From the IMG/VR virus record IMGVR_UViG_3300020477_001105, positions 1-64,000 of that record: a DNA stretch of 64,000 bases; one strand, given 5' to 3'. Positions 5 to 14,760 of this stretch are shown here, piece after piece. A model generated the notes under the pieces. That model searched no databases. It saw only the letters and a program-made list of their open reading frames with translations, and was not told the origin of the DNA. A program made the position numbers and the translations under genes. The DNA is from a virus. Each line of letters opens with the position of its first letter. The stretch's first letter is position 1.

Positions 5-397
5 TGGTGGAGCAGGCGGGAGTCGAACCCGCGTCCTTAGGGTGACTCCTATCAACCTCTACACGCTTATCCGGCCTTTAAGTTCGGCTATATGGGTCAA
101 GGCCGGCAGACCCCCATATAGCCTAGCGTAGGACTTGGTATGGGCCCTCGCCAGGGTTACCATACTGCAGGTTGTATTTGCGCCATATAACCTACAACCT
201 TCAGTTATACGACGTTCGCCCTATCTAGGCGAGCGCAAGCTCTTGCTTGGGAGTAGCTTGGAACATGTCCGCTACCTTCGCAAAGAGTTCAGATACTTTG
301 TTCTTGCCAATTATCTGTGTCCGAGTTTTACGAGACCATCGGTATCTCGGCGTGCAATTCATGATCATCAACAATAAGTCGAATCCATTACTGCCCC
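5..397 (-). ncRNA. ssrA: Transfer-messenger RNA (tmRNA), one-piece
   Basis: Rescues stalled ribosomes by acting as an alanyl-tRNA and then as a short mRNA that adds a degradation tag. The 5' end (GGGGCAG, 397 downward) pairs over 7 bp with CTGCTCC next to the encoded CCA (7-5), with a G-U at the third pair as required by alanyl-tRNA synthetase. The T arm is perfect (GCGGG/CCCGC around TTCGACT). The tag reading frame runs from a GGC resume codon (308-306) to TAG (227-225), 27 residues starting GKNKVSEL and ending KQELALA. The bases before the resume codon (ATAATT) match the ATAGTC seen in E. coli. It is a single molecule, not the permuted two-piece form of alphaproteobacteria and some cyanobacteria. 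Pseudoknots were not folded. Confidence 0.96.
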
Positions 398-400
398 TCA

Positions 401-428
401 ATAGTATTTAATGCCATTATAGTGTCAA
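401..428 (-). promoter_or_regulatory. Sigma70-type promoter of tmRNA
   Basis: Read on the minus strand, TTGACA (428-423) and TACTAT (406-401) are separated by 16 bp and end 3 bp before the mature tmRNA 5' end. A TATAAT also lies inside the spacer but has no good -35 partner. RNase P would trim any short leader. Confidence 0.6.
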
Positions 429-442
429 ATGCAACAAGATCC

Positions 443-450
443 ACTAAATA
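443..450 (+). promoter_or_regulatory. Late-promoter-like octamer ACTAAATA
   Basis: Resembles the T4 late -10 element TATAAATA and lies 12 nt upstream of the ATG at 463. Weaker match than most in this window. Confidence 0.4.
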
Positions 451-462
451 TTTACAGCTGCA

Positions 463-969
463 ATGCGAGATAGAGATTCACATCTAATTTATGAGCAGTA
501 CATGGTCACTGAAGGGCGAGCTTCAGGATTCTATCGTCTACTCAGGTGGTTATTTACAAAAGATCCTGCAAAAACAGGTCTTAGTAATATAGCCAAAGGG
601 CGAGTTGCTGGTACTGCTGTTGGCGCTGATCTGGCATTGAATCAAGGCCGTATTACTGGGTCGGTGGTAGATACAGGTGTAGGTGTTGCTTCTGACATGG
701 CGGTGAAGGGGGCGGGAATTTTGGCAGACGGTCTCACTACTGCCGCGCGGAATGCGTGGGAAGCAGGTCTTAAAGACCCGATGACTGGGGCGGTGATAGG
801 TGGATTCACTCTTTTAGGTGCATGGATGTTAATGAAAAATTTAGACTCTGATAGTGCAGAGAAAGATATTGAAATAAATATCCAACGACCGCTTGATCAA
901 CAGGACAGAAAAGCAATCAGGCAACCTATGCCCGTGTCCGGTCCAGTACCAGGTCTACCACCATCATAA
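463..969 (+). CDS. Hypothetical virion protein with capsid-targeting-like N-terminus
   Basis: A 168-residue protein with no family I recognise. The first 11 residues end in LIYE, matching the (L/I)-x-E site cut by T4-type prohead protease, and resemble the N-termini of the genes at 43955 and 63336. The middle (about residues 40-125) is rich in Gly, Ala and Val with a hydrophobic stretch near GGFTLLGAWMLM (about 112-123) that could be one membrane segment. The C-terminal 40 residues are polar and Pro-rich. It is one of few plus-strand genes and converges on the protease gene at 1022. A virion or internal-head role is inferred only from the N-terminus. Confidence 0.7.
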   Translation: MRDRDSHLIYEQYMVTEGRASGFYRLLRWLFTKDPAKTGLSNIAKGRVAGTAVGADLALNQGRITGSVVDTGVGVASDMAVKGAGILADGLTTAARNAWEAGLKDPMTGAVIGGFTLLGAWMLMKNLDSDSAEKDIEINIQRPLDQQDRKAIRQPMPVSGPVPGLPPS

Positions 970-994
970 AAAAAGCGGCCCTTTCGGACCGCTT
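968..994 (-). terminator. Rho-independent terminator after the trypsin-like protease
   Basis: Stem AAGCGG/CCGCTT plus two inner G-C pairs with one mismatch and a 4-nt loop (973-994). On the minus strand it is followed by seven T (974-968). It overlaps the stop codon of the converging plus-strand gene. Confidence 0.85.
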
Positions 995-1021
995 AGTTCT
1001 CCACCCGACTACACCCCCTAG

Positions 1022-1960
1022 TTATTTAACCTGTAGCTCTTTCAGTTGCTCTGTCCTCAGCAAGAACGGATATTCCTTCTCCACAAGAGCACGTTTCTTG
1101 CGTTTCTTTTCTTCGTTCTCTTCGCTGAAGTCAGCACCAACATCCTCTACAGGAATTTTTGCAAGTTCAGCATCAGTTGGCATCTTAATTTTAGGATCAA
1201 GTGCCCACATGATCTTATTCTTCTCACACCACTGAACCATACGACGGACTGGTACGATTAGGTTAAAGGTCTCTCCTGCACCTCTTACCAACATACCCAC
1301 ATAACGAGCATCGGACTTCAAAAACACGCCACCGCCGGATGAGCCCGGGAAAGCGGCGACTGTAGTTTGGTCAAACACATGCTTATTAAGTTGTGGGATC
1401 AATCGACCAGTTTGAGAATAGATACCGTCAGTCATACTGTTTGATCCCATTTGACCGAGCAGTGAGCCAACATGCCATAAATCAGTTCCTAATTTAGGAA
1501 TAGTTTCATCTAGATAAAATTTAACTGTGTCATCTACGAAATTGAGCTTACGTACTTTGAGTAGTGCTAAGTCATGGCCATCATCAGCATCAGAGTATTT
1601 TAATACCTCTGCATCTAGTTCTAAGCGACCAACTGCTCTACCACCTTGACGAATGACCTTAATGATCTTTGCATCCTTAAATGTTACGACAGTACGAGGT
1701 GCACCGTTAACGATAACTTTCCTCTCTGTCCGTAAATTGTCAATCACGTGCGCAGCAGTCCATACAAAATTGACAGTGTTACCGTCTTTGTCTTTTCTAG
1801 AAAAAATTACGCCTGAACCTTCACCTGCGGACCAGGTACCTTCAGATCGAATAGTCACGGATACATCTTGGAGATAATCCGCGGTTGTCTTCTTGGCTTC
1901 TTGCGCCAGACTTGATCCAGCAATAAGCAACGATAGGAGAGTAGTTTTAATCAGCTTCAT
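1022..1960 (-). CDS. Exported trypsin-like serine protease
   Basis: A 312-residue chymotrypsin-fold protease with an N-terminal signal peptide (residues 1-19, hydrophobic TTLLSLLIAGSSLA then Gln-Glu). The catalytic triad is visible: His71 in TAAHV, Asp130 in GHDLALLKV and Ser208 in FPGSSGGG. The domain resembles HtrA/trypsin-2 type proteases, but no PDZ domain follows. The last 50 residues are highly charged and may form a helix. Export implies action in the periplasm or outside the cell, for example on envelope proteins or during lysis; the substrate is unknown. It ends in a strong terminator and follows the dehydrogenase gene by 42 bp. GCTAAGTA, 8 nt before the ATG, is a degenerate late-type element. 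Confidence 0.88.
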   Translation of the reverse strand: MKLIKTTLLSLLIAGSSLAQEAKKTTADYLQDVSVTIRSEGTWSAGEGSGVIFSRKDKDGNTVNFVWTAAHVIDNLRTERKVIVNGAPRTVVTFKDAKIIKVIRQGGRAVGRLELDAEVLKYSDADDGHDLALLKVRKLNFVDDTVKFYLDETIPKLGTDLWHVGSLLGQMGSNSMTDGIYSQTGRLIPQLNKHVFDQTTVAAFPGSSGGGVFLKSDARYVGMLVRGAGETFNLIVPVRRMVQWCEKNKIMWALDPKIKMPTDAELAKIPVEDVGADFSEENEEKKRKKRALVEKEYPFLLRTEQLKELQVK

Positions 1961-2002
1961 GTTGCAAATACTTAGCTCACACTATAGGGAAGTTCAACCC
2001 AA

Positions 2003-2848
2003 TTAGATGACAGCTCTACCCTTATCGTCTTTCCAGTCTTCTTCTGGACGATCAATTGTCTGATTTCTCTTTATAATTGCGTCAATAACTATTGGCTCAA
2101 CACCAACGTTTTTCATTTGCATATATAGAGAGCTAGTATCTTTCGGAAAACACGTACCACCAAATCCCTTCTTACCATCAGGGCCAGGTACTTGCGTATG
2201 GCTTTCACCGATACGAGGATCTAATCCAGTCAGTAAGCGAACTGACTCATAGTCGATACCTGCTGCTTCACAAAATTGATGCATCTCGTTAAAGAATGAC
2301 ACTTTTGTTGATAGAAATACATTACGTGCGTACTTACATAGCTCAGCTTCTCGGCACCCAATAAAGTGTAATCTAAAGCCAGGGTTTACTTTATTGTGTC
2401 TAGCTGCATACTTAAATAATGTCCGAACCTTATCTTGAAATTCATCATCACCGCTACAGCCTACTACCCAATCAACGCATGTTCGGACATCGTTTCTCCA
2501 GTTTCTCTCAGTTAAAAACTCAGGCATGAAGTTTACATTTAACGAATCACAGAGACCTACAGGTACAGTAGATCTCACTACAATATTAACGTTAGAATTA
2601 TGGTTCTTTAGGTCAGATACTACGCTCTCCACAATGTTTGTGTGACATTTACCCGTAGACATATCCATAGGGGTTGGAACACAGACAAACACTATGTCAC
2701 AGTCATTTGCTACTGACTGCAATGATAGGTCTTTATTGGGAACCCTCTTGTCTGGATCTATGTCATATATGTATAGATCTGTGTCTTTGTTACTTAGAAG
2801 TGATGTTGCTTGTCCAACGTATCCGTTACCTACAATGCCTATCCTCAT
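2003..2848 (-). CDS. UDP-glucose/GDP-mannose dehydrogenase-like protein, short form
   Basis: NAD-dependent oxidation of a nucleotide sugar to the uronic acid is the family reaction. Residues 1-12 carry the Rossmann motif GNGYVG; FMPEFLTERNW (about 108-118) and the catalytic loop GGTCFPKD with Cys233 are intact. The central helical dimerisation region (about 165-215) is also present. The protein stops at 281 residues, against about 390-450 for the family, so most of the C-terminal nucleotide-binding domain is missing. Activity on a nucleotide sugar is therefore uncertain. I prefer the ATG at 2848 (MRIG), which fits the family start; an ATG at 2857 overlaps the upstream gene by 8 bp. It may serve the glycan cluster at 10-17 kb. 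Confidence 0.85.
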   Translation of the reverse strand: MRIGIVGNGYVGQATSLLSNKDTDLYIYDIDPDKRVPNKDLSLQSVANDCDIVFVCVPTPMDMSTGKCHTNIVESVVSDLKNHNSNVNIVVRSTVPVGLCDSLNVNFMPEFLTERNWRNDVRTCVDWVVGCSGDDEFQDKVRTLFKYAARHNKVNPGFRLHFIGCREAELCKYARNVFLSTKVSFFNEMHQFCEAAGIDYESVRLLTGLDPRIGESHTQVPGPDGKKGFGGTCFPKDTSSLYMQMKNVGVEPIVIDAIIKRNQTIDRPEEDWKDDKGRAVI

Positions 2849-2849
2849 T

Positions 2850-3311
2850 TCAATCATTTAGTCGGAAGAACTTATGATTGCCAATGATAGTAACAGGCTT
2901 TTTTCCTTTTATCCAATCTGGATTACAATCTACACGCATAAAATGGTCAGCTCCTTCAGTGATATCTATTAACTTAATATCAGATCTGCATACGTGTCTA
3001 GCTAGTTGTCGAGCGTACATCATACTTTTCGATTTCCATAAATAGTATAGCTCACGCTCCTTCTTAACCTTACCCTTTCCAGCGCTCCAAGTCTCGAACT
3101 GGTAAGGTTTTAAGCATACTTTGTCTGCGGAGATATTACCTTGCTCCATACGCTTTCGAATTACACATGCCACAGCATACATTCCGATTTGTTTCTCACC
3201 ACGCGCTTCACCTAGAATGGTTAGTGCACAGATACGCTCTTCATAAGTTAAAACTTGATCACCACTACATGCGAATGGTAACAGCATTAATAGTATAATT
3301 GCTTTCTTCAT
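2850..3311 (-). CDS. Exported SleB-type cell wall hydrolase
   Basis: A 153-residue protein of the SleB/Hydrolase_2 family, which cleaves peptidoglycan. Residues 1-15 are a signal peptide (KKAIILLMLLPFACS); the Cys is in a poor lipobox. Family motifs seen: ILGEARGE with Glu35 as probable catalytic acid, a QFETW segment (about 71-75), ADHF with His123, and a C-terminal IGNHKFFRL with His146. Likely the phage endolysin or an envelope-processing hydrolase acting in the periplasm. The ATG lies only 3 nt past the T-tract of the DUF932 terminator, so transcription depends on read-through or on a promoter I could not find. Confidence 0.87.
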   Translation of the reverse strand: MKKAIILLMLLPFACSGDQVLTYEERICALTILGEARGEKQIGMYAVACVIRKRMEQGNISADKVCLKPYQFETWSAGKGKVKKERELYYLWKSKSMMYARQLARHVCRSDIKLIDITEGADHFMRVDCNPDWIKGKKPVTIIGNHKFFRLND

Positions 3312-3314
3312 AAC

Positions 3315-3344
3315 AAAAAAAAATGGCCGCCCCGAAGGGCGACC
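3315..3344 (-). terminator. Strong Rho-independent terminator after the DUF932 gene
   Basis: On the minus strand GGTCGCCC pairs with GGGCGGCC around a UUCG tetraloop (344-325), followed by ATTTTTTTTT (324-315). It lies between the DUF932 stop and the ATG of the SleB-type gene, leaving only 3 nt after the T-tract. Confidence 0.92.
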
Positions 3345-3356
3345 GGGGTCGACCCT

Positions 3357-4367
3357 CTAGTTAAGAGCCGGAGATGGGATCTTCTTGAACTTCTTCTCAT
3401 CCAGAAGAATACTCATCCCTCTTTGCATCATCTGATCGGATGGACCACCAAGCAAGCAGTTAACAAATCGACGCTCTGCAGCCTTACGACCGTGCTTTTC
3501 GAGCTTGTTAATGTTATTGTGGTGGTTGACCCATTCAGTCAGACCGTTAAACGCATCCCAACGCGTCAGACCTCTGTTCCCTTCACCTTCCAGGAACAGG
3601 TCAACGATCTGCTCACGGCGGTTAACCAGTCGGGATGTTTCACGTACCTCTTCACCCTTCTTACGAGGAGGATCAGGTAGAAGCAAATTTGCGAATCCGC
3701 GAACCTCATCAGAGGTAATTTGCATCTTGTTCAGTTTGTTAGCATTGCGCTCAAACTCCTTGCTACCTCTAAGAGCGGCATGGAAGCCGTTCTGGGCAGC
3801 CTCTAAACGATCAGACCAATTCTTAGTATGTGAAATACTCCAATCGGATTGATTAGCAGCTTGAAAGATTGTTTGAATTTGATTGTTACAAACAATACGG
3901 TGTGCTAGTGACAAATAAGCATTACGCTTCGTGCCATCATTAGCAGCAAGAGCCATGATTCGGTTCTCCACCTTGTCATCTGGTCGCCCTTCGATAGTGA
4001 AGCCTTTTGGCAGCCGAGCTGCAATCCAGCACTTCTTACCACCATCGATGATGCCTGCATTTTCATATTCAGCGCCAAACTCTTGTACCATATCATGAAA
4101 TGGGCTAAACATATCCTTAAGTGGTACAGGGTTATAACGGCGACGCATGACGGCAAAAATTCGCTTGGTGTCTTGTCGACGAATAGCGAAGTTACCGGGT
4201 ACTTCATCTCCTTCCGGAGTGTGAACTGGAACCTTTTCCATTTCGAAATCGAATCCAGCAGTTTCCATTAAGTCATTAAAGCCACGCGCTTTTGACACGT
4301 CAACTCCAATGCGTTCATCGAGCGAAATAAGCTCGGTCCTAGTATCGTTTATCATTTGTGTTGCCAT
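3357..4367 (-). CDS. DUF932 / phage-plasmid-like protein
   Basis: A 336-residue protein matching the DUF932 (TIGR03299-like) family of abundant early phage and plasmid proteins of unknown biochemical role. Recognisable parts are the N-terminal region before YNPVPLKDMFSPF (about 78-90), the AYLSLAHRIVCNNQ segment (about 150-163) and the charged helical C-terminal half ending in the TRWDAFNGLTEWVNHH region. It has its own sigma70-type promoter with an inverted repeat in the spacer and an AGGA ribosome site 11 nt before the ATG. A strong terminator follows at once, so this is a self-contained, probably highly expressed early gene. Confidence 0.85.
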   Translation of the reverse strand: MATQMINDTRTELISLDERIGVDVSKARGFNDLMETAGFDFEMEKVPVHTPEGDEVPGNFAIRRQDTKRIFAVMRRRYNPVPLKDMFSPFHDMVQEFGAEYENAGIIDGGKKCWIAARLPKGFTIEGRPDDKVENRIMALAANDGTKRNAYLSLAHRIVCNNQIQTIFQAANQSDWSISHTKNWSDRLEAAQNGFHAALRGSKEFERNANKLNKMQITSDEVRGFANLLLPDPPRKKGEEVRETSRLVNRREQIVDLFLEGEGNRGLTRWDAFNGLTEWVNHHNNINKLEKHGRKAAERRFVNCLLGGPSDQMMQRGMSILLDEKKFKKIPSPALN

Positions 4368-4394
4368 ACTTGTTAATTCCTAACTTCTCCATAT

Positions 4395-4423
4395 ATTATA
4401 GGAACTCCCCGGGGGGAGTGCAA
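4395..4423 (-). promoter_or_regulatory. Sigma70 promoter with operator-like inverted repeat (DUF932)
   Basis: TTGCAC (4423-4418) and TATAAT (4400-4395) are 17 bp apart. ACTCCCC/GGGGAGT with a 2-bp gap (4404-4419) fills the spacer and overlaps the -35, a classical position for a repressor operator. The resulting leader is about 20 nt and carries AGGA. Confidence 0.82.
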
Positions 4424-4440
4424 CAGGAAAAGGGAATTAA

Positions 4441-4677
4441 TTATTCCGCGGCTGGTTGATCAGTACCTTCGGTGTCTACTTGAACCATATCACCTAATGT
4501 ACCTAGAGCTAGTTTAGCATGCGCGATATCATCGACTTGCTTGACTAATTCGTCTACAACTTGTGGATGTTCACCGATTCCGGACGGATTGGATAGATAT
4601 ACCAACAGCGTAGCTTCCGCTTTCTGAAGTTTAGCCTGGTAGTGAGATGCTAGTGCGTCTAATAATTTTTTTTGCAT
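4441..4677 (-). CDS. Small hypothetical protein, helical
   Basis: A 78-residue protein I do not recognise. Mostly helix-forming residues with charged repeats through residue 65, then an acidic tail (DTEGTDQPAAE). No membrane segment or metal motif. It starts 4 bp after the stop of the 64-residue gene upstream, so both are probably one early transcript from the promoter at 4885. Confidence 0.7.
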   Translation of the reverse strand: MQKKLLDALASHYQAKLQKAEATLLVYLSNPSGIGEHPQVVDELVKQVDDIAHAKLALGTLGDMVQVDTEGTDQPAAE

Positions 4678-4681
4678 AATT

Positions 4682-4876
4682 CTATTTAAAACCTTTGTTT
4701 AAGTCAAATACTAATTTACCCTCATTATCTCGAATATTAAGAATATCCTCATCGTTTGTAGTATACTCCCACATTACTTGCTTATGTGCCTGCATAGGAC
4801 TGTCGTTCTCTACAGTAACGGCCTTGGTTTCCTTGGTTCGAGTATTCCGAATGGTGGCAACGTATGTCATTTGCAT
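4682..4876 (-). CDS. Small hypothetical early protein
   Basis: A 64-residue, probably beta-rich protein (TYVATIRNTRTKETKAV) with an acidic middle and a LVFDLNKGFK end. No family recognised. Starts at 4876 or the second ATG at 4870. It is the first gene of a leftward early unit, divergent from the metalloprotease gene, with a sigma70-type promoter 8 nt upstream. Confidence 0.68.
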   Translation of the reverse strand: MQMTYVATIRNTRTKETKAVTVENDSPMQAHKQVMWEYTTNDEDILNIRDNEGKLVFDLNKGFK

Positions 4877-4884
4877 ATGTAAAT

Positions 4885-4913
4885 ATAATAGTGGCGAGGA
4901 CTTCGAATTGCAA
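4885..4913 (-). promoter_or_regulatory. Sigma70-type promoter, leftward early unit
   Basis: TTGCAA (4913-4908) and TATTAT (4890-4885) with a 17-bp spacer, 8 nt before the ATG at 4876. It is back to back with the promoter at 4922. Confidence 0.6.
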
Positions 4914-4921
4914 CTGTATTG

Positions 4922-4949
4922 TTGAATAACTAATTATGGGTGGTATAAT
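4922..4949 (+). promoter_or_regulatory. Sigma70-type promoter of the metalloprotease gene
   Basis: TTGAAT (4922-4927) and TATAAT (4944-4949), 16-bp spacer. Only six bases separate TATAAT from the ATG at 4956, so the transcript is predicted to start at or next to the start codon. Confidence 0.75.
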
Positions 4950-4955
4950 ACAGGT

Positions 4956-5453
4956 ATGCTTGTCGTGAATCTCAAACCTACCGAAAGAGCGCAGCGATAC
5001 TGCAGACGTGACAATATCGACTTAATCCGAGTCCAAGAAGTTCTAAACTTTATAGCTCAATACATTGATAGCCGAAAAAAAATCGAAATAGTCAATATGT
5101 CGCTCGACATAGACTGTCGAAAAGCTGATTCAGAATACAACTTTCGTAGCAAACATATTCTCATTGCCGGTATTACTGAGAAACATCGAAGGGGTAAGAC
5201 GAGGAAAGGTCGATTAAACTATTTCTTTGAGCATCTAGTACATGAGTTTAGACACTGCATGCAGGAGGTTATATTTCGCAAAGATGCATCTGACGTAACA
5301 TATGAGTCTACAGATGATGCTGAGTATGCTGATAACCCTCTGGAAGTTGACGCAATGTGGTTTGAGAAGAAATATGCCAAAAAGGCATTAGAATTATACT
5401 TTGCTCTCAAACGAGCCAAAGTGAAAGATGTTGATATATATCACGGTGATTAA
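4956..5453 (+). CDS. HExxH zinc metalloprotease-like protein
   Basis: A 165-residue basic protein with HEFRH at residues 96-100, the zinc-binding and catalytic HExxH helix, and a downstream acidic cluster NPLEVDA (Glu130/Asp132) that could give the third ligand. The order HEFxHxMQ then NPxExDA recalls compact SprT/ImmA-like or similar peptidases; I cannot fix the family. Target unknown; an early host or regulator protease is one possibility. It is driven by its own sigma70-type promoter ending 6 nt before the ATG, and converges on the ClpC-like gene with a 4-bp overlap of the ends. Confidence 0.78.
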   Translation: MLVVNLKPTERAQRYCRRDNIDLIRVQEVLNFIAQYIDSRKKIEIVNMSLDIDCRKADSEYNFRSKHILIAGITEKHRRGKTRKGRLNYFFEHLVHEFRHCMQEVIFRKDASDVTYESTDDAEYADNPLEVDAMWFEKKYAKKALELYFALKRAKVKDVDIYHGD

Positions 5454-7891
5454 CGTTTCTTAAATTTGAGCTCACCATCGCGTGCATAGCACGTTACTGA
5501 ATCACCTTCCACATACTTGCCTTTAAGTAGTTGAATACTCATCTGTGTTTCAAATAACCGTTGAATTGTTCTTTTCAGTTCACGTGCACCGTATTTTTCG
5601 TCATATCCTTTCTCAACAAAGAGATCTCGAGCTGTGTCAGCTAATTTGACAGTAATACCGTGCTCTGCTTTAATCCTGTCAATATATACTTTAAAGTTTA
5701 AGTTAACGATCTCACCAATGTGTTCTTTTGTAAGATTATTGAATACAACCATTTCATCAATCCTATTGATAAATTCTGGTTTGAATTGATTTTTAACCTC
5801 TTCAATAGCCTTGTCAACAGCCATGACTTTCTTCTCACTCTCAGTAGGTGTTACAAAGCCTAGAGGTTCTGGAGATTGAACCTTTTCTGCTCCAATGTTA
5901 GTCGTCATGACAACAATGGTGTTTCTAAAGTTAATAACTCTACCTTCACCGTCAGTTACCTTTCCTTCTTCTAGAATTTGTAAAAGGATATGCAAGACTT
6001 CGCTATTAGCTTTCTCAATTTCATCGAATAGTACTAGAGAGTATGGTTTACGTCTAATCTTCTCAGTCAGTTTACCTCCTCTACCATAACCAACATACCC
6101 AGGTGGTGACCCGATAAGCTTAGAAACTGAATGTTGCTCCATTAACTCAGACATATCAATTTGCACTATATTATCAGCTCCACCAAAGACGTGCTCCGAG
6201 ATAGTCTTAGCTAAATATGTCTTACCTACACCAGTAGACCCTAGAAATAAGAATGATCCAATTGGCCTGTTTGGATCTTGTAGCTTAGCTGCTGAACGCT
6301 TTAGAGAGTCACAGATAAGTTTAATAGCATGATCCTGACCAATTACAGCATCTTTAACATTACCCTCTAACTTCATTATCTTACTTACGTAACTATTCTC
6401 TTTACTATCAACAGGCACACCAGCCATGTGGCTAACAATACCTCGTATTGTTTCTTCGTCAATAGTAACAGAATTCTTTCTCTTCTCTTTTCTTTCATTT
6501 AACAAGAGCTCATATTCTCTTCGAGCGTCGTCTTCCTTTTGCTTATATGTAGCAGCTTCCTCGAATTGTTGACCAGCGACTAGATTTTCTTTTTTACGCT
6601 TAAAGCGATTAAATTTAGATTGTACAGTCTTTAGATCTTTAATGGTATGATCTGTGCTATTAGTACTAGCACCAGCTTCATCAATAACATCAATCGCTTT
6701 GTCGGGTAAGTTCCTATTTGTAATATACCTCTTGGATAGCTCCACTGCACCTCTCAACGCATCGTCAGTATACTTAACGTTATGAAATTTCTCATACACT
6801 GGCTTAATGCCTTTAAGAATCTGCATAGCATCTTCTAGAGATGGTTCATTTACTTCTACTGACTGAAATCTTCTCTCCAGTGCACTGTCTTTCTCAATAC
6901 TGGTTCTATATTCATCAAAGGTTGTGGCACCAATACACTTCATCTCACCGCGGGCAAGTGCGGGTTTGAGAATATTACTAGCATCCATTGCCCCTTCAGC
7001 TGACCCTGCACCTACCATCATATGAAGCTCGTCAATGAATAGGATAACATTTCTACACTTTTTCATCTCATTGATGACTGCTTTCATCCTTTCTTCAAAT
7101 TGACCCCTATATTTTGTACCAGCAACCATCGCAGGTAAGTCTAAGCTAATCACGTGCTTATCTGCCAATGCTTCTGGTACATCTCCAGAAATAACTCTTT
7201 GAGCAAAACCCTCAACTACAGCAGTCTTACCTACACCTGCTTCTCCTATTAAGACAGGGTTATTTTTAGTCTTTCGACATAGAACTTGAATCATTCGATT
7301 GATTTCTACATCTCTACCAATTACAGGGTCAATTTTATTCCGAGCTGCTAGCTTAGTTAAATTGACACCGAACTTTGCTAAATTCTTAAGAGTTAAAATC
7401 TCATCATCATCACGATCTACAATAGTAGTCTCTTCACTATCATCCAAATTACCACCAACCTCTTTATCTACAAGAGATCTAACCTTCTTATAACTTACCC
7501 CTAAACTGCCTAGTATATTATTCGCAACACCGTCTGGCTCATATAGCAGGCCTAAGAAGATATGCTCAATGTCACATTTAGGCCGGTCTAATTTTTTAGC
7601 TACATTAACAGCTAACTCAATAACTTTATCTACACGAGGTGTATATTGAATCTCGTCAATAGATACCGTATCGTCTCCTTCTTGAGAGATGTTGTCATAT
7701 ATAATACTTCGAAGCTCTTCAATGTCGACATACAGCTGATCCAGCGTATCGGTAATAATAGTATCACCAATGTTAAGAAGACCTAATAACAGGTGCTCTG
7801 TACCAGCGTATCTATTTCTAAGCAATTGAGCTTCTTTCTTTGCCATAGAAAGAGCTTGCTTAGCTTGTGGTGTTAGTTTAAATGTGTCCAC
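5450..7891 (-). CDS. clpC: ClpC/ClpA-type double AAA+ protein unfoldase
   Basis: Unfolds proteins with ATP, normally feeding them to ClpP. 813 residues: Clp_N repeats (about 1-140), NBD1 with Walker A GEAGVGKT near 216 and LFIDELHMM, a short UVR-like middle domain (about 430-465) as in ClpC rather than the long ClpB coiled coil, NBD2 with GSTGVGKT near 549 and LFDEIEKA, and a C-terminal D2-small domain. The tripeptide LGF near residue 676 sits where ClpA/ClpC/ClpX carry their ClpP-docking loop, so pairing with host ClpP is plausible; no clpP is in the window. Start is GTG at 7891, supported by the Clp_N family start and by AATAAATA 5 nt upstream. Confidence 0.95.
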   Translation of the reverse strand: MDTFKLTPQAKQALSMAKKEAQLLRNRYAGTEHLLLGLLNIGDTIITDTLDQLYVDIEELRSIIYDNISQEGDDTVSIDEIQYTPRVDKVIELAVNVAKKLDRPKCDIEHIFLGLLYEPDGVANNILGSLGVSYKKVRSLVDKEVGGNLDDSEETTIVDRDDDEILTLKNLAKFGVNLTKLAARNKIDPVIGRDVEINRMIQVLCRKTKNNPVLIGEAGVGKTAVVEGFAQRVISGDVPEALADKHVISLDLPAMVAGTKYRGQFEERMKAVINEMKKCRNVILFIDELHMMVGAGSAEGAMDASNILKPALARGEMKCIGATTFDEYRTSIEKDSALERRFQSVEVNEPSLEDAMQILKGIKPVYEKFHNVKYTDDALRGAVELSKRYITNRNLPDKAIDVIDEAGASTNSTDHTIKDLKTVQSKFNRFKRKKENLVAGQQFEEAATYKQKEDDARREYELLLNERKEKRKNSVTIDEETIRGIVSHMAGVPVDSKENSYVSKIMKLEGNVKDAVIGQDHAIKLICDSLKRSAAKLQDPNRPIGSFLFLGSTGVGKTYLAKTISEHVFGGADNIVQIDMSELMEQHSVSKLIGSPPGYVGYGRGGKLTEKIRRKPYSLVLFDEIEKANSEVLHILLQILEEGKVTDGEGRVINFRNTIVVMTTNIGAEKVQSPEPLGFVTPTESEKKVMAVDKAIEEVKNQFKPEFINRIDEMVVFNNLTKEHIGEIVNLNFKVYIDRIKAEHGITVKLADTARDLFVEKGYDEKYGARELKRTIQRLFETQMSIQLLKGKYVEGDSVTCYARDGELKFKKR

Positions 7892-7896
7892 GTAAG

Positions 7897-7904
7897 TATT
7901 TATT
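7897..7904 (-). promoter_or_regulatory. Late-promoter octamer AATAAATA (clpC)
   Basis: One mismatch to T4 TATAAATA, ending 5 nt before the GTG start of the Clp gene. No Shine-Dalgarno fits in that gap. Confidence 0.65.
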
Positions 7905-7942
7905 CATTATACCTACGGGGGCAAGAAGTGCAACCAATGACT

Positions 7943-8313: not shown

Positions 8314-9117
8314 TTAGTAAGTTTCTCTACCACGGTTAAGCAGCACTGTGGCATTCTGAAGATATGTACTATCTTCAGGAACTACTATCATTGTAGCCCC
8401 GTTATGTATCGCACCCACAATACACTCTGAAGTGGTACCGGTTGTATTATAGTGACCGTGATTTTCTGTACCAATCACTATAATAACTAGGTCAATTTCT
8501 CGCATAATGTAATCTCTATGATTCTCTGTAACAATTGCTTGGTACTCACCTACATCACTATATCTCTCTGTCCTGAGATGCCACTCTCTCATAACACCTG
8601 GTACTATCTGATCTCCAGTATCACCAATAACAATAACCTTATCATACGGTACTACGATATTAGCTATGTGGCGAGGATCTTGTAACTCTAATGTGACTAA
8701 CAATTCGTTCTTCCCGGAATCATTAGTCATCAACCTAGTGTTAATAATTTTATACTTACCATAATCCAGAATATTAGTCTTACGCTGGTTTAACGTTATG
8801 CTATAATTATCAACAGAAAGGTCTGTTCTAAACCCTGTTACATTAACTGTATGGGATGTAACATATTCACTAGTTGGATAGAAGGTATGTGTTAGGGTTT
8901 TATCTGCTAATTGATACCAGTCAGTGAGACTGTGTACCGTATGTATAGCAGAATCATCACTAAATTGAACAAGGCATTTGAGATAGCTGTATTGAGTACC
9001 ACTATAATGACCTGTGGATAGGATGTTAGCAAAGCTTAACGTGAACGCTATACTTCCATCAATATACACACTATCAGCAGTCTTCCCTCCTGTTAGTATG
9101 TAAGTGGTAGTGTTCAC
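8314..9117 (-). CDS. Hypothetical virion-associated protein
   Basis: A 267-residue, beta-rich protein with many Thr, Tyr and Val residues, typical of tail adhesin parts, but without a domain I recognise. The N-terminal 110 residues look like an Ig-like or beta-sandwich unit (TVNVTGFRTDLSVDNYSITL); the last third (TTGTTSECIVGAIHNGATMIVVPED) is different. Start is GTG at 9117, six bases after AATAAATA. It lies between the small fiber gene and the glycan cluster. Confidence 0.7.
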   Translation of the reverse strand: MNTTTYILTGGKTADSVYIDGSIAFTLSFANILSTGHYSGTQYSYLKCLVQFSDDSAIHTVHSLTDWYQLADKTLTHTFYPTSEYVTSHTVNVTGFRTDLSVDNYSITLNQRKTNILDYGKYKIINTRLMTNDSGKNELLVTLELQDPRHIANIVVPYDKVIVIGDTGDQIVPGVMREWHLRTERYSDVGEYQAIVTENHRDYIMREIDLVIIVIGTENHGHYNTTGTTSECIVGAIHNGATMIVVPEDSTYLQNATVLLNRGRETY

Positions 9118-9122
9118 TGTAA

Positions 9123-10007
9123 TTATTTATTCATCAACAAATTTACACTGGCTTCTCCGACCATTGTCCCTTCGATGTTACAATATTTGCACGCTGATCC
9201 AGATCGGTCACCTTTAGATAGCATTTCTCGAACATTAGTAAACTCACTACCGAACCAAATTTCTTCTAATGTATTATTGTTAATATTTCCGAAACCTTTA
9301 TGCCTTCTAAACCAATCATTGCAACACAACAATGCTGACCCATCCCAGTCTAACACTAATTTATAAAACGGTAAATTACACGGTCGCTCAACATATACTT
9401 CTCCTTGCAAGTGTTCAAAGTCTACAGCTCCTGATCTGTTATTAAAATTGTTCCTATTCATCAAATCTTCGGTGGTCTCATCAGGATTAAACCACAGCTC
9501 TCGTATCTCATAATCCTCAATACCATTCTCTGTAAACATTTTTTCGAATTTCGTTTTGTGCTCCGGTCCATCGTAACAGCTAATAATCATATATGTTACA
9601 CCGCTATCATATATCTGTTTAATGACATCTACTGTTAATAAGTCACCGTTAGATGTTAGCGCTATTCTATTATCAGGTAAGTGTGATCTGAGCTCTGTGA
9701 CTAGTTTATAAAAGTTTTTGTTAGTTAGTGACTCTCCAAATCCGGAAATATGAAAATCGCACTCATAATTACTCTCCTTACATTTGATACCAATATTTCT
9801 CATAGTATCAATAGACATAAATAGTTTCTGGTTAGGGTATACGTCAGGATTATGTCTAGGACAAAAGCTGCACTTTCTAGTACATAGCTCAGTGATACAC
9901 AGCTCTATAACAGATAACCCTTTCAAACAATTTTTGAATGTATCTCTTTCTGAGTTTATAGTGTATCTGCTATACCTATTCTCCATGTGCTTTTTGATAG
10001 CTGCCAC
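9123..10007 (-). CDS. Radical SAM/SPASM enzyme
   Basis: A 294-residue radical SAM protein: Cys42, Cys46 and Cys49 form the CX3CX2C site (LCTRKCSFC) that binds the 4Fe-4S cluster and S-adenosylmethionine. A C-terminal SPASM-like cysteine set follows (LLCCNDW, then SACKYCNIEG near the end) with the usual GNINNNTLEEIW segment. Such enzymes modify peptides or sugars; the substrate is unknown. It is a paralog of the gene at 15724, and the pair brackets the glycan cluster. Start is GTG at 10007, six bases after TTTAAATA (10021-10014). Confidence 0.92.
   Translation of the reverse strand: MAAIKKHMENRYSRYTINSERDTFKNCLKGLSVIELCITELCTRKCSFCPRHNPDVYPNQKLFMSIDTMRNIGIKCKESNYECDFHISGFGESLTNKNFYKLVTELRSHLPDNRIALTSNGDLLTVDVIKQIYDSGVTYMIISCYDGPEHKTKFEKMFTENGIEDYEIRELWFNPDETTEDLMNRNNFNNRSGAVDFEHLQGEVYVERPCNLPFYKLVLDWDGSALLCCNDWFRRHKGFGNINNNTLEEIWFGSEFTNVREMLSKGDRSGSACKYCNIEGTMVGEASVNLLMNK
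9124..9131 (-). promoter_or_regulatory. Late-promoter octamer AATAAATA (8314-9117 gene)
   Basis: Six bases before the GTG start at 9117. It overlaps the end of the upstream radical SAM gene. Confidence 0.65.
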
Positions 10008-10013
10008 CGAATA

Positions 10014-10021
10014 TATTTAAA
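10014..10021 (-). promoter_or_regulatory. Late-promoter-like octamer TTTAAATA
   Basis: Six bases before the GTG start of the radical SAM gene, inside the end of the 72-residue gene upstream. Supports the GTG as the start. Confidence 0.5.
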
Positions 10022-10235
10022 GGAGAGGGCCTACTTGTTCAACAAACTCACGTCTAGCTTGCCGAATATCACACATAACACAGCTACGTCTATTATGTTT
10101 ACGGATAAAAGCTATACGTTTTTTGTACTTCTCAACATGATCAACAATATTACCAATGTCTTTTTCAATTTCTCTATCGTTCTCTACATCTAATGCAATA
10201 GTAGTAGCTGATGCTAACTGATCTAATGTGGCCAT
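10017..10235 (-). CDS. Small hypothetical protein with CxxC
   Basis: A 72-residue, helical, basic-acidic protein with CVMC at about 52-55. A single CxxC is not enough to claim zinc binding. GATAAATA lies 5 nt upstream of the ATG, so it appears to be separately transcribed although it follows the glycosyltransferase gene by one base. Confidence 0.65.
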   Translation of the reverse strand: MATLDQLASATTIALDVENDREIEKDIGNIVDHVEKYKKRIAFIRKHNRRSCVMCDIRQARREFVEQVGPLL

Positions 10236-10236
10236 A

Positions 10237-11178
10237 TTAGTATTTATCTACCTTCCTAAAAGCTTCTTGCCATTGATCAACGACAATTTGTACATCACAA
10301 TAAGGATTATCAGTTGTTTTAGTCTTATAATGTTCAACCATTCTATAAAATAACTCTTTGTCTTCTGTCAATCTAATAGCTTGATCTAAAAACTCATTCT
10401 CATCATTAGCAATTAAAAAATCTAATTCACTTTCTCTCAACCCTGCCATCTCAGGTGATATATTGAATATACCTGGAGTGTTCATATACCAGGCTTGATA
10501 TAACCTATTAGCTGTGCGGTGACCGTATTTACCTGAATTAGCTTCTCGTCCTGTCACTTTTCCTAGATAATTAGTTCTCCTTACACAAAAATAGACATCT
10601 TCATTACCTACATTATTGTCGTTTTCAAAATCAAATATTAAATCAATATTATAAGAGCGACATTTATCGATAAACTGTTGCTCTAGCATTTCTGGTATCA
10701 TGGTATGTTGCCGACCGACATACTTAAAACACTTCGGAGGAAAAGAAGGTTCACACTTCTTAACGTTAAATGTAGGTGGGTAATGAATAAAGTGCCATTT
10801 ACTCTTATCTTGCACCCACGTATTCAAGGCATTCTCAATACCATACCTCTTTATAGTTTCGATATCTTTTGTAGGTTGCAGAATACCTCTATTAGCTGCA
10901 ATATATAGTGTCGTGTTGTCGACACACGGTCTATCAGTAACAACCTGTATAGTCTTATATGCATTAAAATCTATAATGTCTCTGTTATCGTAGTGATATA
11001 CAATTGTATCAAATTTAGTTAAATCATCATCAGGCGATACCATGTATACATCTAATCCGTGATTTTTTAATATCCAATAGTAGTAACCTGTAGCGCTGTG
11101 CTTACCGTGAAGGTATTGATAGGCATCTAAATTATCCCTGTAATTAGGTAAGTTTATGTCACACAGAAATCCGATCAT
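10237..11178 (-). CDS. GT-B-like glycosyltransferase
   Basis: A 313-residue protein. The N-terminal half (MIGFLCDINLPNYRDNL, later HFIHYPPTFN) and the C-terminal NRLYQAWYMNTPGIFN followed by NDENEFLDQAIRLTEDKELF have the look of GT-B glycosyltransferases, in which the second motif contacts the nucleotide sugar and the last helix counts off residues. No exact CAZy family can be given. The start is probably ATG 11178; a GTG at 11181 directly precedes it. It overlaps the end of the sialyltransferase-like gene by about 20 bp, showing translational coupling inside the cluster. Confidence 0.62.
   Translation of the reverse strand: MIGFLCDINLPNYRDNLDAYQYLHGKHSATGYYYWILKNHGLDVYMVSPDDDLTKFDTIVYHYDNRDIIDFNAYKTIQVVTDRPCVDNTTLYIAANRGILQPTKDIETIKRYGIENALNTWVQDKSKWHFIHYPPTFNVKKCEPSFPPKCFKYVGRQHTMIPEMLEQQFIDKCRSYNIDLIFDFENDNNVGNEDVYFCVRRTNYLGKVTGREANSGKYGHRTANRLYQAWYMNTPGIFNISPEMAGLRESELDFLIANDENEFLDQAIRLTEDKELFYRMVEHYKTKTTDNPYCDVQIVVDQWQEAFRKVDKY
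10241..10248 (-). promoter_or_regulatory. Late-promoter octamer GATAAATA (72-residue gene)
   Basis: Five bases before the ATG at 10235, within the last codons of the upstream gene. Confidence 0.6.
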
Positions 11179-11872
11179 CACTTATATCAATTAATTTATT
11201 TTGTCGCATCAAGGTATTCAAATATATTCTCTCGTTCATATAATTATGATCACTATTAATGATATGATCCGGGTTCCAATACCATGATGATTGTAGAAAA
11301 CAGTCAAACCCGGTTATATATATTTCTGCATCACGGAACCGCAACAATGCTGCTTGGATCACTCTTATACCAACTGATGGCTCTATCAATACTGGTTTAC
11401 CTTTTTTATCTTTAATTATTTTTGATGGCAATTTTAGCTTATAGGAAAGCTTATTAATTAATGTATATGGGTAGTACCGAATTTTACTTGTAGGTAGTTC
11501 GAAGTGGTTTAGATATTTTTCGTGTGTTTCAATATCACCATCTTTAAGAGGTGTATCGTTTTTAAGACTGTATTCAAGATAGTTCTTTAAATAGGAATTT
11601 CTAGGGTGATGCTTCTTGTACGGATCGCAGAACATGAACCAATATACATCTACATCACTAACGTGGCTCATGTCGTTAGGGTGATATGGTGGCTTGTTCT
11701 CAAACCAACTAAACCATTTACTAGCATATATATCCACCTTCGTACCAGTATACTCCTCATAACCGTCAGTAACGTACTGCTTCATTCGAATGACTTTATC
11801 ACAACTATCAATAAATTTTCCATTCTTGTTATTAAGAATAGATCCCCCGTTACCAATGATAGCTACTTTCAT
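11159..11872 (-). CDS. Sialyltransferase-superfamily (GT29/GT42-like) protein A
   Basis: A 237-residue protein with the three conserved blocks of sialyltransferases: an N-terminal nucleotide-binding block (VAIIGNGGSILNNKNG, then DSCDKVIRM), a second block PSVGIRVIQAAL followed by IYITGFD, and HNYMNE, an H-x4-E like the catalytic-His motif of eukaryotic-type GT29. It would transfer a CMP-activated sugar. It is the longest of four paralogs in this cluster and keeps all motifs, so is the best candidate for an active enzyme. No signal peptide or membrane anchor, unlike eukaryotic homologs, so it should be cytoplasmic. It overlaps the aminotransferase gene by 4 bp. Confidence 0.72.
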   Translation of the reverse strand: MKVAIIGNGGSILNNKNGKFIDSCDKVIRMKQYVTDGYEEYTGTKVDIYASKWFSWFENKPPYHPNDMSHVSDVDVYWFMFCDPYKKHHPRNSYLKNYLEYSLKNDTPLKDGDIETHEKYLNHFELPTSKIRYYPYTLINKLSYKLKLPSKIIKDKKGKPVLIEPSVGIRVIQAALLRFRDAEIYITGFDCFLQSSWYWNPDHIINSDHNYMNERIYLNTLMRQNKLIDISDDRISV

Positions 11873-12822
11873 TCGATAATATCCTTATGATTAGTCACAG
11901 TCATTCGAATAAACTTTCTTTCACTGACTTCAATCAGCTTAACGTCAGCAATTTTCGAAAGCTCATTCCAAAGCTTAGCAGTGTATGTCATAAGCACATA
12001 GTTACCTATGCACGGTATACACTTATATTTACTCTCAATTTGACGCTTCGCTTTTTTTAGTCGACTCACTGACTCTTCTATCATATCAGGATTATCGTAT
12101 ATGTATTGAATAAATTTAACACCTACACCAGATATCTCATATGCCGGCTTGGTTAAGCTAACACAGTCTATATTACTAGGTTGTGTAACAATGTAACCTA
12201 TACGCATACCTGCGCCTCCAGCTGCTTTACTTAATGTTCGTAGTATGTATAAGTTGTCATACTTATCTACCAGGTGCTCAGATGTGTAATAATTATTAAA
12301 TTCATAATACGCTTCATCAACGATAACATTTTTATTATGTTGACATAACTTCTCTACAATACTATTAGTGATTCTTGTACCTGTAGGGTTATTTGGATTG
12401 ACGATATAAACAACATCATATCCTGTAGCGTTAGTAGCTGTTGTAAACTTATTATTGTGATATGTGTACTGAGTAACATTACAGTCGTAAGAATATATCT
12501 CACCATATACTCCGGTCATTTGAAATGTCGGGTTCCAGTATTTTAATGACTTGCAGTTTTGCAGCTTAAAATATTCCAATAGTATTTTAAGACCTTGCTC
12601 TGAACCGTTACACAAAAGCAATTTATTTGGTTCAATGTTTATAGTGGCACTTAGCGCTTTATAAGCTTTAGGTAAGTCAGGGTACAGTACAATATCTTCA
12701 GGTGTTAAGCATTTGTAAAATTCTCTGTATCTATCACGTAATACAAAATCAAAGTTTTCGTTGCGATCCAGGCCAAGAAACTTACGTACAAATTTTTTAT
12801 CTCTCCATGATGTTCTTTTCAT
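11869..12822 (-). CDS. HisC-like PLP aminotransferase
   Basis: A 317-residue fold-type I aminotransferase resembling histidinol-phosphate aminotransferase or CobD-type enzymes. Seen: NGSEQGL, the NPNNPTG motif, DEAYYEF with the PLP-ring Asp, and RTLSKAAGGAGMRIGY with the Schiff-base Lys, then a C-terminal FIRMTVTNH that matches the HisC substrate-Arg region. Slightly shorter than HisC (about 350) at the N-terminus. Given its place between two sialyltransferase-like genes, an amino-sugar or amino-acid decoration role is more likely than histidine synthesis; this is inference. Its start overlaps the upstream stop by one base. Confidence 0.88.
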   Translation of the reverse strand: MKRTSWRDKKFVRKFLGLDRNENFDFVLRDRYREFYKCLTPEDIVLYPDLPKAYKALSATINIEPNKLLLCNGSEQGLKILLEYFKLQNCKSLKYWNPTFQMTGVYGEIYSYDCNVTQYTYHNNKFTTATNATGYDVVYIVNPNNPTGTRITNSIVEKLCQHNKNVIVDEAYYEFNNYYTSEHLVDKYDNLYILRTLSKAAGGAGMRIGYIVTQPSNIDCVSLTKPAYEISGVGVKFIQYIYDNPDMIEESVSRLKKAKRQIESKYKCIPCIGNYVLMTYTAKLWNELSKIADVKLIEVSERKFIRMTVTNHKDIIE

Positions 12823-13400
12823 TACTTAGAAATGTCTATGATGTGGCCTTTAGCTTCTAGCTTCTTATAATAGCTCATCTCTTCGAGAATGCAATTTCTA
12901 AAATCAGCAGTACAATCATGTGACGGGTCCCAATACCAGCCAGACGTCATAAAATCAAATCCTGTGGTATATATAGGAACGTCAAAATTGTCCATAGCCA
13001 TTTGGATGGCTATAATACCTACTGATGGTTCTCCATTTTTAAAATTTTTATCTAATAACCGCCTACTCTTATTAGATAGAAATCTGATATCCGGTTTGTA
13101 TAAGTTAAATGCTTTTATATTCTCTACATGGTCGCGCTCCGTTATTTCCTTCTTCCCACCTAGAGCGTGCCACATTGTAGGTGGTTTTGGATGAGGAAAC
13201 CAAAACTCATTATGGTCATGAATTCGATAAACTATCTTATGCCATTTAGCGCAATATACATCCAACTTAGAACCTACGTAACTCTGATACCCGTCAACTG
13301 TGAAAGTATTAACTCGTACGACCCTGTCACATTTATCAATAAATTCACCATTCCGATTATTTAATGCACATTGACCGTTACCTATAACTACAGTTTTCAT
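12822..13400 (-). CDS. Sialyltransferase-superfamily protein B
   Basis: A 192-residue paralog of the 11159 gene: VVIGNGQCALNNRNG, DKCDRVVRV, WFPHPKPP and PSVGIIAIQMAM followed by IYTTGFDFM are all present. The aligned position of the H-x4-E motif reads without His (around ADFRNCILEE), so the catalytic base seems lost or moved. It may be inactive, may use another residue, or may pair with an active copy. Overlaps its neighbours by 1-4 bp on both sides, so it is co-translated with the aminotransferase and the oxygenase. Confidence 0.7.
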   Translation of the reverse strand: MKTVVIGNGQCALNNRNGEFIDKCDRVVRVNTFTVDGYQSYVGSKLDVYCAKWHKIVYRIHDHNEFWFPHPKPPTMWHALGGKKEITERDHVENIKAFNLYKPDIRFLSNKSRRLLDKNFKNGEPSVGIIAIQMAMDNFDVPIYTTGFDFMTSGWYWDPSHDCTADFRNCILEEMSYYKKLEAKGHIIDISK

Positions 13401-14134
13401 TTTATCTCAATAAGTACCTCTACATACCTTCTTCTATTTTTAGGTGACGGGTGGTCGCACTCGAATGAGCCAGCACAATGAACGGCGGTTTCTGGACTCA
13501 TAGGAAAACATACAAAATTATTGCTACCATACTCTACCGTTTTACCTATTTTTAAGCTGTCCTTATTTTTCACGTACACACCGTCATACTGCGTATCTTG
13601 AGACGTTTCATACATTAAAAAATCTCGTCCATTGCTTTGGTCATCAACTCTCTTCATATAAAAGAGTATACCGCATATTTTCTTACACTTATCATAATGA
13701 GGTGACCTAGAATGGTGCTGTGTGTGTTTATGAGGGTCTTCTAAAATAAACATAGCATCTATGTTTATGGACTTTGGCTTATCACTATATCTTATACCAA
13801 AATTACCTTTTCGGAGATCACTATACACACCTAACCCTTTCTTTATTATATGGTCTCCAAATAAACATAAACACCTATCAACAAAATATTGAGTAGTATG
13901 ATATTCTAAAAAATTATACCATATGTCTGTTACGTCATTTACGTCGATTTTAGCAAAGCTTAGACTGTATTTTCCAGGCTCAGGATGTGAGCCTTTATCT
14001 ATAATTAACTGCTCAGGAAACGTTTTATTGAGGTCATCGTATAACTTTTGCGGTAGAACGTGATCCTTACTAATATGAGTAAACGGGTACGTGCTCACAT
14101 GGCTTTTATTGACATTATCTAATAACCCATTCAT
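13397..14134 (-). CDS. 2-oxoglutarate/Fe(II) oxygenase-like protein
   Basis: A 245-residue protein with the double-stranded beta-helix signature: HYD (H-x-D) in SPHYDKCKK, the distal His in ETAVHCAGSF, and Arg in RRRYVEV that would bind 2-oxoglutarate. The segment ICGILFYMKRVDDQSNGRDF between them fits the family core. It would hydroxylate a small molecule, sugar or residue; the target is unknown. It overlaps sialyltransferase-like genes at both ends, which links it to the glycan pathway. Confidence 0.8.
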   Translation of the reverse strand: MNGLLDNVNKSHVSTYPFTHISKDHVLPQKLYDDLNKTFPEQLIIDKGSHPEPGKYSLSFAKIDVNDVTDIWYNFLEYHTTQYFVDRCLCLFGDHIIKKGLGVYSDLRKGNFGIRYSDKPKSINIDAMFILEDPHKHTQHHSRSPHYDKCKKICGILFYMKRVDDQSNGRDFLMYETSQDTQYDGVYVKNKDSLKIGKTVEYGSNNFVCFPMSPETAVHCAGSFECDHPSPKNRRRYVEVLIEIK

Positions 14135-14760
14135 AATACATTTATCCTTTTTGTTGATACTAATTTCTTGAACTGAGTATACTGCTGTAATATTGGAGAC
14201 ACATTTACATAATCTTTATACAGTTGTCGTTGTCTATTAAAATAATACCCTGTATCTAGAAAATATCCATCAAACCCAGTAACATATATCTTTGAGTTGG
14301 TAAAGATATAACATGCCATATCAATGGCAACAGTGCCAGTGTCAGGAATATTAAAATTACATCTCCGATCAGATGAGGTTGCGAGTAACCCATTATATGG
14401 GTAGTATATGTCCTTATATGCTAACTGCACATCTTCGGGTATATAAGTCACATTTAAATCTTTTACTGCTCTAGAATTTCTATGTGTAGACGCTACACCG
14501 GGGTAATGTGAACACCAATCATGAGGTGGAGAGGGATATGCCAACCAAATATCAATTTTTCTTACTCTATCAAAATTGCGTTCTAGTTTTTTCCATCTAG
14601 ATACGTATACATCAGTTTTTGACCCGACACAGTCTTCGTAACCGTCAATAACATAATTACCCATTCGGATTACAACATCACACCTATCAATAAACTGCCC
14701 GTTGCTCTCCTTAGCGGCACTTGGACCATTACCTATTATGCATACGCTGTGTGGCATCAT
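14131..14760 (-). CDS. Sialyltransferase-superfamily protein C
   Basis: A 209-residue paralog with CIIGNGPSAAKESNG, DRCDVVIRM, WLAYPSPPHDW and the block IPDTGTVAIDMA then IYVTGFDGYF. Like copy B, it lacks the H-x4-E motif at the aligned site (around NVSPILQQY). It starts with ATGATG, so the exact first residue is uncertain by one codon. It overlaps the ParB-like gene by 32 bp and the oxygenase gene by 4 bp. Confidence 0.68.
   Translation of the reverse strand: MMPHSVCIIGNGPSAAKESNGQFIDRCDVVIRMGNYVIDGYEDCVGSKTDVYVSRWKKLERNFDRVRKIDIWLAYPSPPHDWCSHYPGVASTHRNSRAVKDLNVTYIPEDVQLAYKDIYYPYNGLLATSSDRRCNFNIPDTGTVAIDMACYIFTNSKIYVTGFDGYFLDTGYYFNRQRQLYKDYVNVSPILQQYTQFKKLVSTKRINVL

Follow-up and report, generated by a model that had tools for sequence, protein, structure and literature searches.

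Transfer-messenger RNA (tmRNA) and SmpB rescue ribosomes from non-stop mRNA and append a degron, and SmpB is required for this trans-translation. ClpP is required for degradation by the unfoldase ClpC, and the partners of ClpP dock via IGF/IGL-type loops. Phage-encoded tmRNAs are already known (PMC4131195; PMC9004378) and are counted in 402 of 18,146 phage genomes (PMC9004378). The tmRNA of Melnitz, a T4-like marine methylophage, is two-piece and SAR11-like, with a glutamine riboswitch; the authors propose that the phage tag could send host proteins to degradation, and no Clp protein is mentioned (PMC9004378). Huge phages with both tmRNA and SmpB have been described in a report whose main text names no Clp protein (PMC7162821). 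Jumbo phages with ClpP or ClpA are also known (PMC7824862), and the Sinorhizobium jumbo phage AP-J-162 (~470 kb) combines a tmRNA with several Clp proteins in one cultured phage (PMC11242549); the accessible parts of these two reports draw no link between tmRNA and Clp. Among bacterial systems, B. subtilis ClpC works only with adaptors, and ClpX with SspB is the main reader of the E. coli tag (PMC8138137). Here we describe a tmRNA and a ClpC encoded ~5 kb apart within the first 64,000 nt (hereafter the window) of the viral record IMGVR_UViG_3300020477_001105, which is linear, 111,662 bp long and probably incomplete.

Like Melnitz, the window phage encodes its own tmRNA, but this tmRNA is one-piece and long-tagged, and it lies in a conserved block with clpC. 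The window phage shares phage-encoded trans-translation parts with the huge phages of PMC7162821; unlike them, its record is without a detected SmpB, and other ClpC records examined here combine SmpB, ClpC, ClpP and tmRNA. Our literature search, which had little reach into subscription journals, found no description of a conserved, co-promoted tmRNA-ClpC pair or of a clpP-tmRNA neighbourhood. What appears new is the conserved, co-promoted pair; phage tmRNAs and phage Clp ATPases are already known. The two genes and their key sites are as follows.

5..397, minus strand: one-piece tmRNA gene (ssrA) with encoded CCA, identified by ARAGORN, RF00023 and covariation with two diverged homologs
225..308, minus strand: tag frame GKNKVSELFAKVADMFQATPKQELALA with its stop codon, gene positions 90-173, resume codon GGC at 306-308
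5450..7891, minus strand: clpC (813 aa, GTG start), a ClpC-type double-ring unfoldase by Pfam, PHROG and PDB match
5855..5863, minus strand: LGF ClpP-docking tripeptide, residues 677-679, located by alignment with phage ClpCs

The initial annotation of this DNA had described a complete one-piece tmRNA with an acceptor G-U pair, a T arm and an encoded CCA, and had set a covariance-model search beforehand as one test. ARAGORN and Infernal both place a complete, one-piece tmRNA at 5-397 on the minus strand, and its RF00023 score of 145.6 bits (E 4e-57, model positions 1-374 of 374) is well above the cut-off of 47, bearing out that description. It is the sole tRNA-like gene detected across the 111,662-bp record. 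Homologous tmRNAs scoring 157 and 153 bits were found in two diverged relatives, L346 (IMGVR_UViG_3300035204_002230), which came from a scan with tmRNA 5'-end patterns, and L354, which with L351-L353 came from a ClpC alignment search. The acceptor stem GGGGCAG/CTGCTCC includes G3-U70, and columns 3/397 of the alignment are GU in all three homologs, as in an alanine acceptor; the T arm is invariant across them. RNAalifold on the three tmRNAs gave 116 pairs, 26 of which have both sides changed yet still paired. In the alignment 95% of cells are paired, and none of 500 shuffles reached any of these measures. When partners were slid, doubly changed pairs fell from 26 to 0-5, an excess that is partly built in because the structure was derived from these same three sequences.

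The 27-residue tag GKNKVSELFAKVADMFQATPKQELALA, with its ELALA end and its GGC resume codon, had also been called initially and was recovered by ARAGORN, with homologous tags in L346 (AKNEVLGLFEKVAEKFEATKGSRELALA) and L354 (GNKMSDLFNVVADKFEAAESEELALA). In the E. coli tmRNA the resume context is ATAGTC followed by GCA, and the tag frame is taken as correct because the spacing between GGC and the conserved ATAATT upstream of it matches. Compared with L354, codon positions 1/2/3 of the window's tag differ at 8/5/17 of 27; the pattern against L346 is weaker, with 4/8/10 differences. Common to all three tags are the core LF..VA[DE].F.A and the ELALA tail, which is the most conserved part, and each has an amphipathic stretch (shuffle p 0.016, 0.08 and 0.04). 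The commonest tmRNA tag length is 10 aa, far shorter than the window tag (PMC11915505). These comparisons show, at the level of sequence, a phage tmRNA that has been selected both as an RNA and as a translated tag. The tmRNA looks functional, with SmpB binding, aminoacylation and tagging all predicted.

The clpC product has the Pfam order Clp_N, AAA, AAA_lid_9, AAA_2, ClpB_D2-small and matches phrog_4871 over almost its full length. Its best PDB sequence match is B. subtilis ClpC at 765 bits, compared to 634 for ClpB and 520 for ClpA, and its score falls under the NCBIfam equivalog cut-offs for ClpA and ClpB. The middle domain is short and ClpC-type, with phage QQFEEA aligning with QEFEKA of B. 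subtilis ClpC. LGF aligns with the xGF-type loop of ~80 phage ClpC homologs, every one of those aligned having xGF, xGL or xGY, and the loop is L/M/I-GF in five clade members. These results agree with the earlier call of a full-length ClpC within 8 kb with LGF at the ClpP-docking loop. The alignment shows that the docking loop of this full-length ClpC is intact, and the protein is predicted to dock host ClpP. It resembles B. subtilis ClpC/MecB (Hsp100 class I) in its N domain, two AAA modules, short middle domain, xGF loop and full-length match. It differs in being phage-encoded, in having a predicted activity and in lacking a recognised adaptor: no ClpS, MecA, SspB or McsB-type protein was recognised among the open reading frames (ORFs) scanned, a subset of all ORFs. 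An AlphaFold2 model of ClpC built from five sequences was poor (mean pLDDT 59) and was set aside.

The same composite promoter-like element, defined as TATA[AC]T with TAAATA 0-6 bases further on, precedes both genes.

405..421, minus strand: composite promoter-like element TATAATGGCATTAAATA, upstream of the tmRNA; also before the L346 and L354 tmRNAs
7897..7911, minus strand: composite promoter-like element TATAATGAATAAATA, upstream of clpC; equivalents in L350, L351, L352, L353 and L354

The element occurs three times in the 111.7-kb record, compared to 2.25 expected under a first-order model, and the only intergenic copies lie directly upstream of clpC and of the tmRNA. Wider spacing adds one further copy, inside a gene. 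In six of six clade members the element precedes clpC, by ~20 bp in five of them and by 55 bp in L354, and in three of three it precedes the tmRNA, where L354 has an overlapped form, TATAATAAATA; the remaining sites in relatives are few and within ORFs. TAAATA, which we take to resemble the T4-type late motif, is found alone 10-30 bp upstream of about half of 32 genes checked, and TATAAT resembles the -10 box of host sigma-70 promoters. A sigma-70-like TTGACA-16-TACTAT at 428-401 overlaps the tmRNA element, and such matches are no commoner than in shuffles. The initial annotation had assigned the tmRNA and clpC to different promoter types, a contrast left unsupported because both carry the same composite element. 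We read this element as one by which both genes could be switched on by host polymerase, and then again late.

The two genes are also held together by position. The gene order shared by the window, L346 and L354 runs from clpC through an opposite-strand HExxH gene, a small gene, phrog_1811, DUF932 and a trypsin-like protease to the tmRNA, and then to a gene whose product starts with an ETWH- or LWH-type motif (the 'ETWH' gene). ClpC identity to the window is 64% in L346 and 59% in L354; the L346 tmRNA is 79% identical to that of the window, more than any of the flanking genes, which are 56-73% identical at the DNA level. In L351 and L353 the block is kept through the trypsin gene, and their contigs stop 1.5 and 2.9 kb past that gene, in stretches that hold other ORFs. 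Both genes are also present in a near-identical sibling contig, IMGVR_UViG_3300030329_003548. A tag-pattern match in L348 proved to be a chance match inside a tail protein. The synteny in these diverged genomes shows that clpC and the tmRNA belong to one conserved gene block within this lineage, as far as sequence comparison reaches, and upholds the co-occurrence that had been expected in related phages. The genes between and around them are listed below.

463..969, plus strand: phage ORF between the tmRNA and the trypsin-like gene; not at this place in L346 and L354
1022..1960, minus strand: trypsin-like (Trypsin_2) protease, the nearest conserved neighbour of the tmRNA, kept in every relative covering it
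3357..4367, minus strand: DUF932 protein, block member, kept in L346/L350, L353 and L354
4441..4677, minus strand: phrog_1811 small protein, block member, also adjoining ClpC in L162
4956..5453, plus strand: HEFRH (HExxH) protein of 165 aa, convergent with clpC, kept in five relatives at 51-78% identity

The HExxH protein matched no Pfam family above cut-off, and a PDB fold search with its AlphaFold2 model (pLDDT 75) gave no significant match; it is possibly a small zinc metallopeptidase. The trypsin-like protease has a signal-peptide-like N terminus and relatives in at least 144 viral stretches. On the other side of clpC, window positions 8314-17179 hold small genes leading to tail-fibre-like genes, including a radical SAM/SPASM protein and, by reading, glycosyltransferase-like and aminotransferase-like proteins. 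By its gene content the record is a T4-like, marine-type virus of bacteria. The nearest cultured relative of its large terminase subunit (TerL) is that of Sinorhizobium phiM9 (38%), its sheath and baseplate proteins are similar to cyanophage homologs, UvsY was recognised, and DNA polymerase and helicase ORFs were read in the remainder of the record. The tmRNA points to no host: 84,980 species genomes scanned with tmRNA 5'-end patterns gave 15 matches, none an ARAGORN tmRNA. At the DNA level, the tmRNA matched no cultured phage.

More generally, a tmRNA above cut-off was found in 28 of 50 viral records with ClpC relatives, compared to 2.3% of phage genomes (PMC9004378). A nearly identical set of 50 ClpC records contained ClpP in 15 and SmpB in 6, and 19 of the 26 records tested for TerL were positive. 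A simple enrichment of tmRNA among ClpC phages was rejected: on the ClpC tree tmRNA is scattered over several clades and is no more clustered than shuffled labels, so that kinship limits the raw co-occurrence counts. Among 80 trypsin-gene loci, 3 of the 5 with ClpC have a tmRNA no more than 8 kb away, compared to 3 of the 75 without ClpC (hypergeometric p ~0.002, kinship not corrected, one of the three with ClpC being the near-identical sibling of the window). The two ClpC contigs without a tmRNA end 1.5 and 2.9 kb beyond the trypsin gene. Phosso, LR756501, LR745206 and SpP are ClpC phage records without a tmRNA above cut-off, and LR756508 has one. The last record (LR756508.1, uncultured, 484 kb) encodes ClpC and a full tmRNA (72 bits) and has a further, short tmRNA-like match (112 bases, 58 bits) that is perhaps tag-less; the tmRNA-related sites are 92434-92880 and 414804-414915 (loci L375 and L379).

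Two further settings combine the genes. In a ClpC lineage without the N domain, all 12 records of at least 50 kb on the tree have a tmRNA, typically 2.3-2.8 kb downstream of clpC and with tags such as GNTFAKMAALGLIAEEAVVKA. This lineage includes L038, L052, L063, L068, L072, L073, L078 and L081; its tags are of the GN(T/V)..K(L/M)A..GL type, some ending in KA, GA or EA and some with two stop codons. ClpC, ClpP, SmpB and tmRNA occur together in five unrelated huge-phage records, G069, G090, G091, G094 and G096, of which the G094 tmRNA, at 44.4 bits, is just below cut-off; no terminase was found in G090. In G091, G094 and G096 (233-369 kb, terminase present) the tmRNA follows clpP by 100-150 bp on the same strand, and the tags end in ELAVA or ELATV. 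The surrounding genes (L366:3573-12543 in G091, L367:6510-14288 in G094, L365:3918-12775 in G096) comprise a DUF2828/DUF7788 protein (Pfam-tested in L365), DnaJ, ClpP and the tmRNA, with an RF-1/GGQ-domain protein (PF00472, 133-184 aa) ~2 kb downstream; SmpB and ClpC lie elsewhere in the same records. This arrangement looks like a viral translation quality-control island.

Elsewhere among the loci examined, L003 and L004 carry QueC-like (by reading), GTP cyclohydrolase I, PTPS/QueD-like and weak radical SAM/QueE-like genes (L003:3748-4458, the QueC-like gene; L003:19135-19800; L004:498-941; L004:910-1722), likely a 7-deazaguanine (preQ0) DNA-modification pathway.

For the window phage, we propose that mRNA breakdown during infection would create non-stop complexes. 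The phage tmRNA, charged by host alanyl-tRNA synthetase and acting with host SmpB, would rescue ribosomes stalled on broken mRNA and append its long ELALA tag to the unfinished proteins. The phage ClpC would dock on host ClpP and add unfolding capacity, tagged fragments and other proteins would be cleared, and ribosomes and amino acids would be returned to virion synthesis. Taken as a whole, tmRNA rescue and tagging with host SmpB, together with ClpC boosting host ClpP, is the best explanation and on balance a probable one. Possible, but less likely than not, is a phage ClpC that itself reads this tag by preference, a task that may fall to host ClpX or ClpA. Rather unlikely is the broader view that several phage lineages run a dedicated pathway, in which the tmRNA writes a long phage-specific degron and phage ClpC reads it for delivery to ClpP, both being switched on together. 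In such a pathway ClpP would be borrowed from the host here and phage-encoded in the huge phages where clpP and tmRNA adjoin.

A real possibility, although we rate it below an even chance, is that the two genes are independent helpers whose proximity is historical. The tmRNA would recycle ribosomes through host SmpB and ClpXP/ClpAP, and ClpC would act otherwise, for example by remodelling or degrading certain proteins of the host or the virion in late assembly; for jumbo-phage ClpA, a part in virion assembly has been proposed (PMC7824862). Several observations weigh in this direction and against a working tmRNA-ClpC partnership. clpC adjoins tail and fibre-like genes and does not form one operon with the tmRNA, since two opposite-strand genes and terminator-like sites lie between. 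Of the TerL relatives, G013 carries ClpC in a comparable setting but lacks a tmRNA, and G030/G031 have a tmRNA and no ClpC. A generic tmRNA pattern drew 25 large records; of the 12 with an ARAGORN tmRNA none had the ClpA/B/C lid domain, and of the 13 without, one had ClpA/B/C. Most phage tmRNAs thus do without a phage ClpC, but several ClpC-bearing lineages carry a tmRNA. Known ClpCs need adaptors, and tmRNA tags are not usually read by them (PMC8138137). Long helical tags occur in phages with no ClpC nearby (L399, L411 and L416), and the idea that long tags go with ClpC was dropped. These three are marine phage tmRNAs near a trypsin-like gene (L399:10713-11122, L411:11739-12141, L416:10056-10456); their tags share EAD(A/E)ILA.FG and form another conserved long tag family, resembling that of L287, AESNFDFAPSVAEADAFLKASGFVDAELLAA.

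Two missing partners bear on the partnership as well. ClpP (PF00574) was not found in the 111.7-kb record, which is probably incomplete, nor in the sibling, and SmpB (PF01668) was not found in the same record; both would therefore have to be host-supplied. The virus-run tag-and-degrade system proposed initially thus holds in part: its tmRNA and ClpC are present, and the covariance score and the co-occurrence support it, but with ClpP, SmpB and a recognised adaptor not found it is not fully virus-run, and the separate promoter types fell away. Against two unconnected helpers stand the composite element at exactly clpC and the tmRNA, kept in all relatives, the recurrence of tmRNA in several ClpC-bearing lineages, and the conserved ClpP-docking loop, which a pure assembly chaperone would not need.

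Two other explanations appear very improbable. The phage tmRNA could be a decoy, sequestering host SmpB or ribosomes and blocking trans-translation by the host, much as a tRNA-like-only RNA of mycobacteriophage DS6A inhibits tmRNA (PMC4131195, PMC11915505), but a decoy would have no use for a tag, and here the mRNA-like domain, the pairing and the tag are all conserved. Equally remote is a tag that serves as a handle for protection, localisation or chaperone delivery rather than as a degron, with the amphipathic stretch and not the tail as the functional part. A tag so much longer than the commonest 10 aa (PMC11915505), with such a stretch, would suit a handle, yet the ELALA tail is its best conserved part and resembles degron tails. 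An artefact, in which a tmRNA lying 4 bp from the contig end came from host DNA, a chimeric assembly or a prophage attachment site, is refuted by the sibling contig, which runs ~440 bp beyond the tmRNA into another phage gene, by the same position of the tmRNA in L346 and L354, and by the absence of a bacterial tmRNA with this 5' end among the 84,980 species genomes.

The tmRNA-ClpC pair bears on the question of why phages carry tmRNA. It gives concrete form to the vague idea that viral tmRNAs direct proteins to degradation, by supplying a candidate reader, a tag and diverged homologs in which specificity could be swapped. If the tag and its reader were indeed dedicated to each other, they would provide an orthogonal degron usable in the laboratory. 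A protein quality-control pathway that is viral throughout would have its strong candidates in the huge-phage records that combine ClpC, ClpP, SmpB and tmRNA. If such a dedicated pathway exists, infected cells would sort their translation products by a viral signal.

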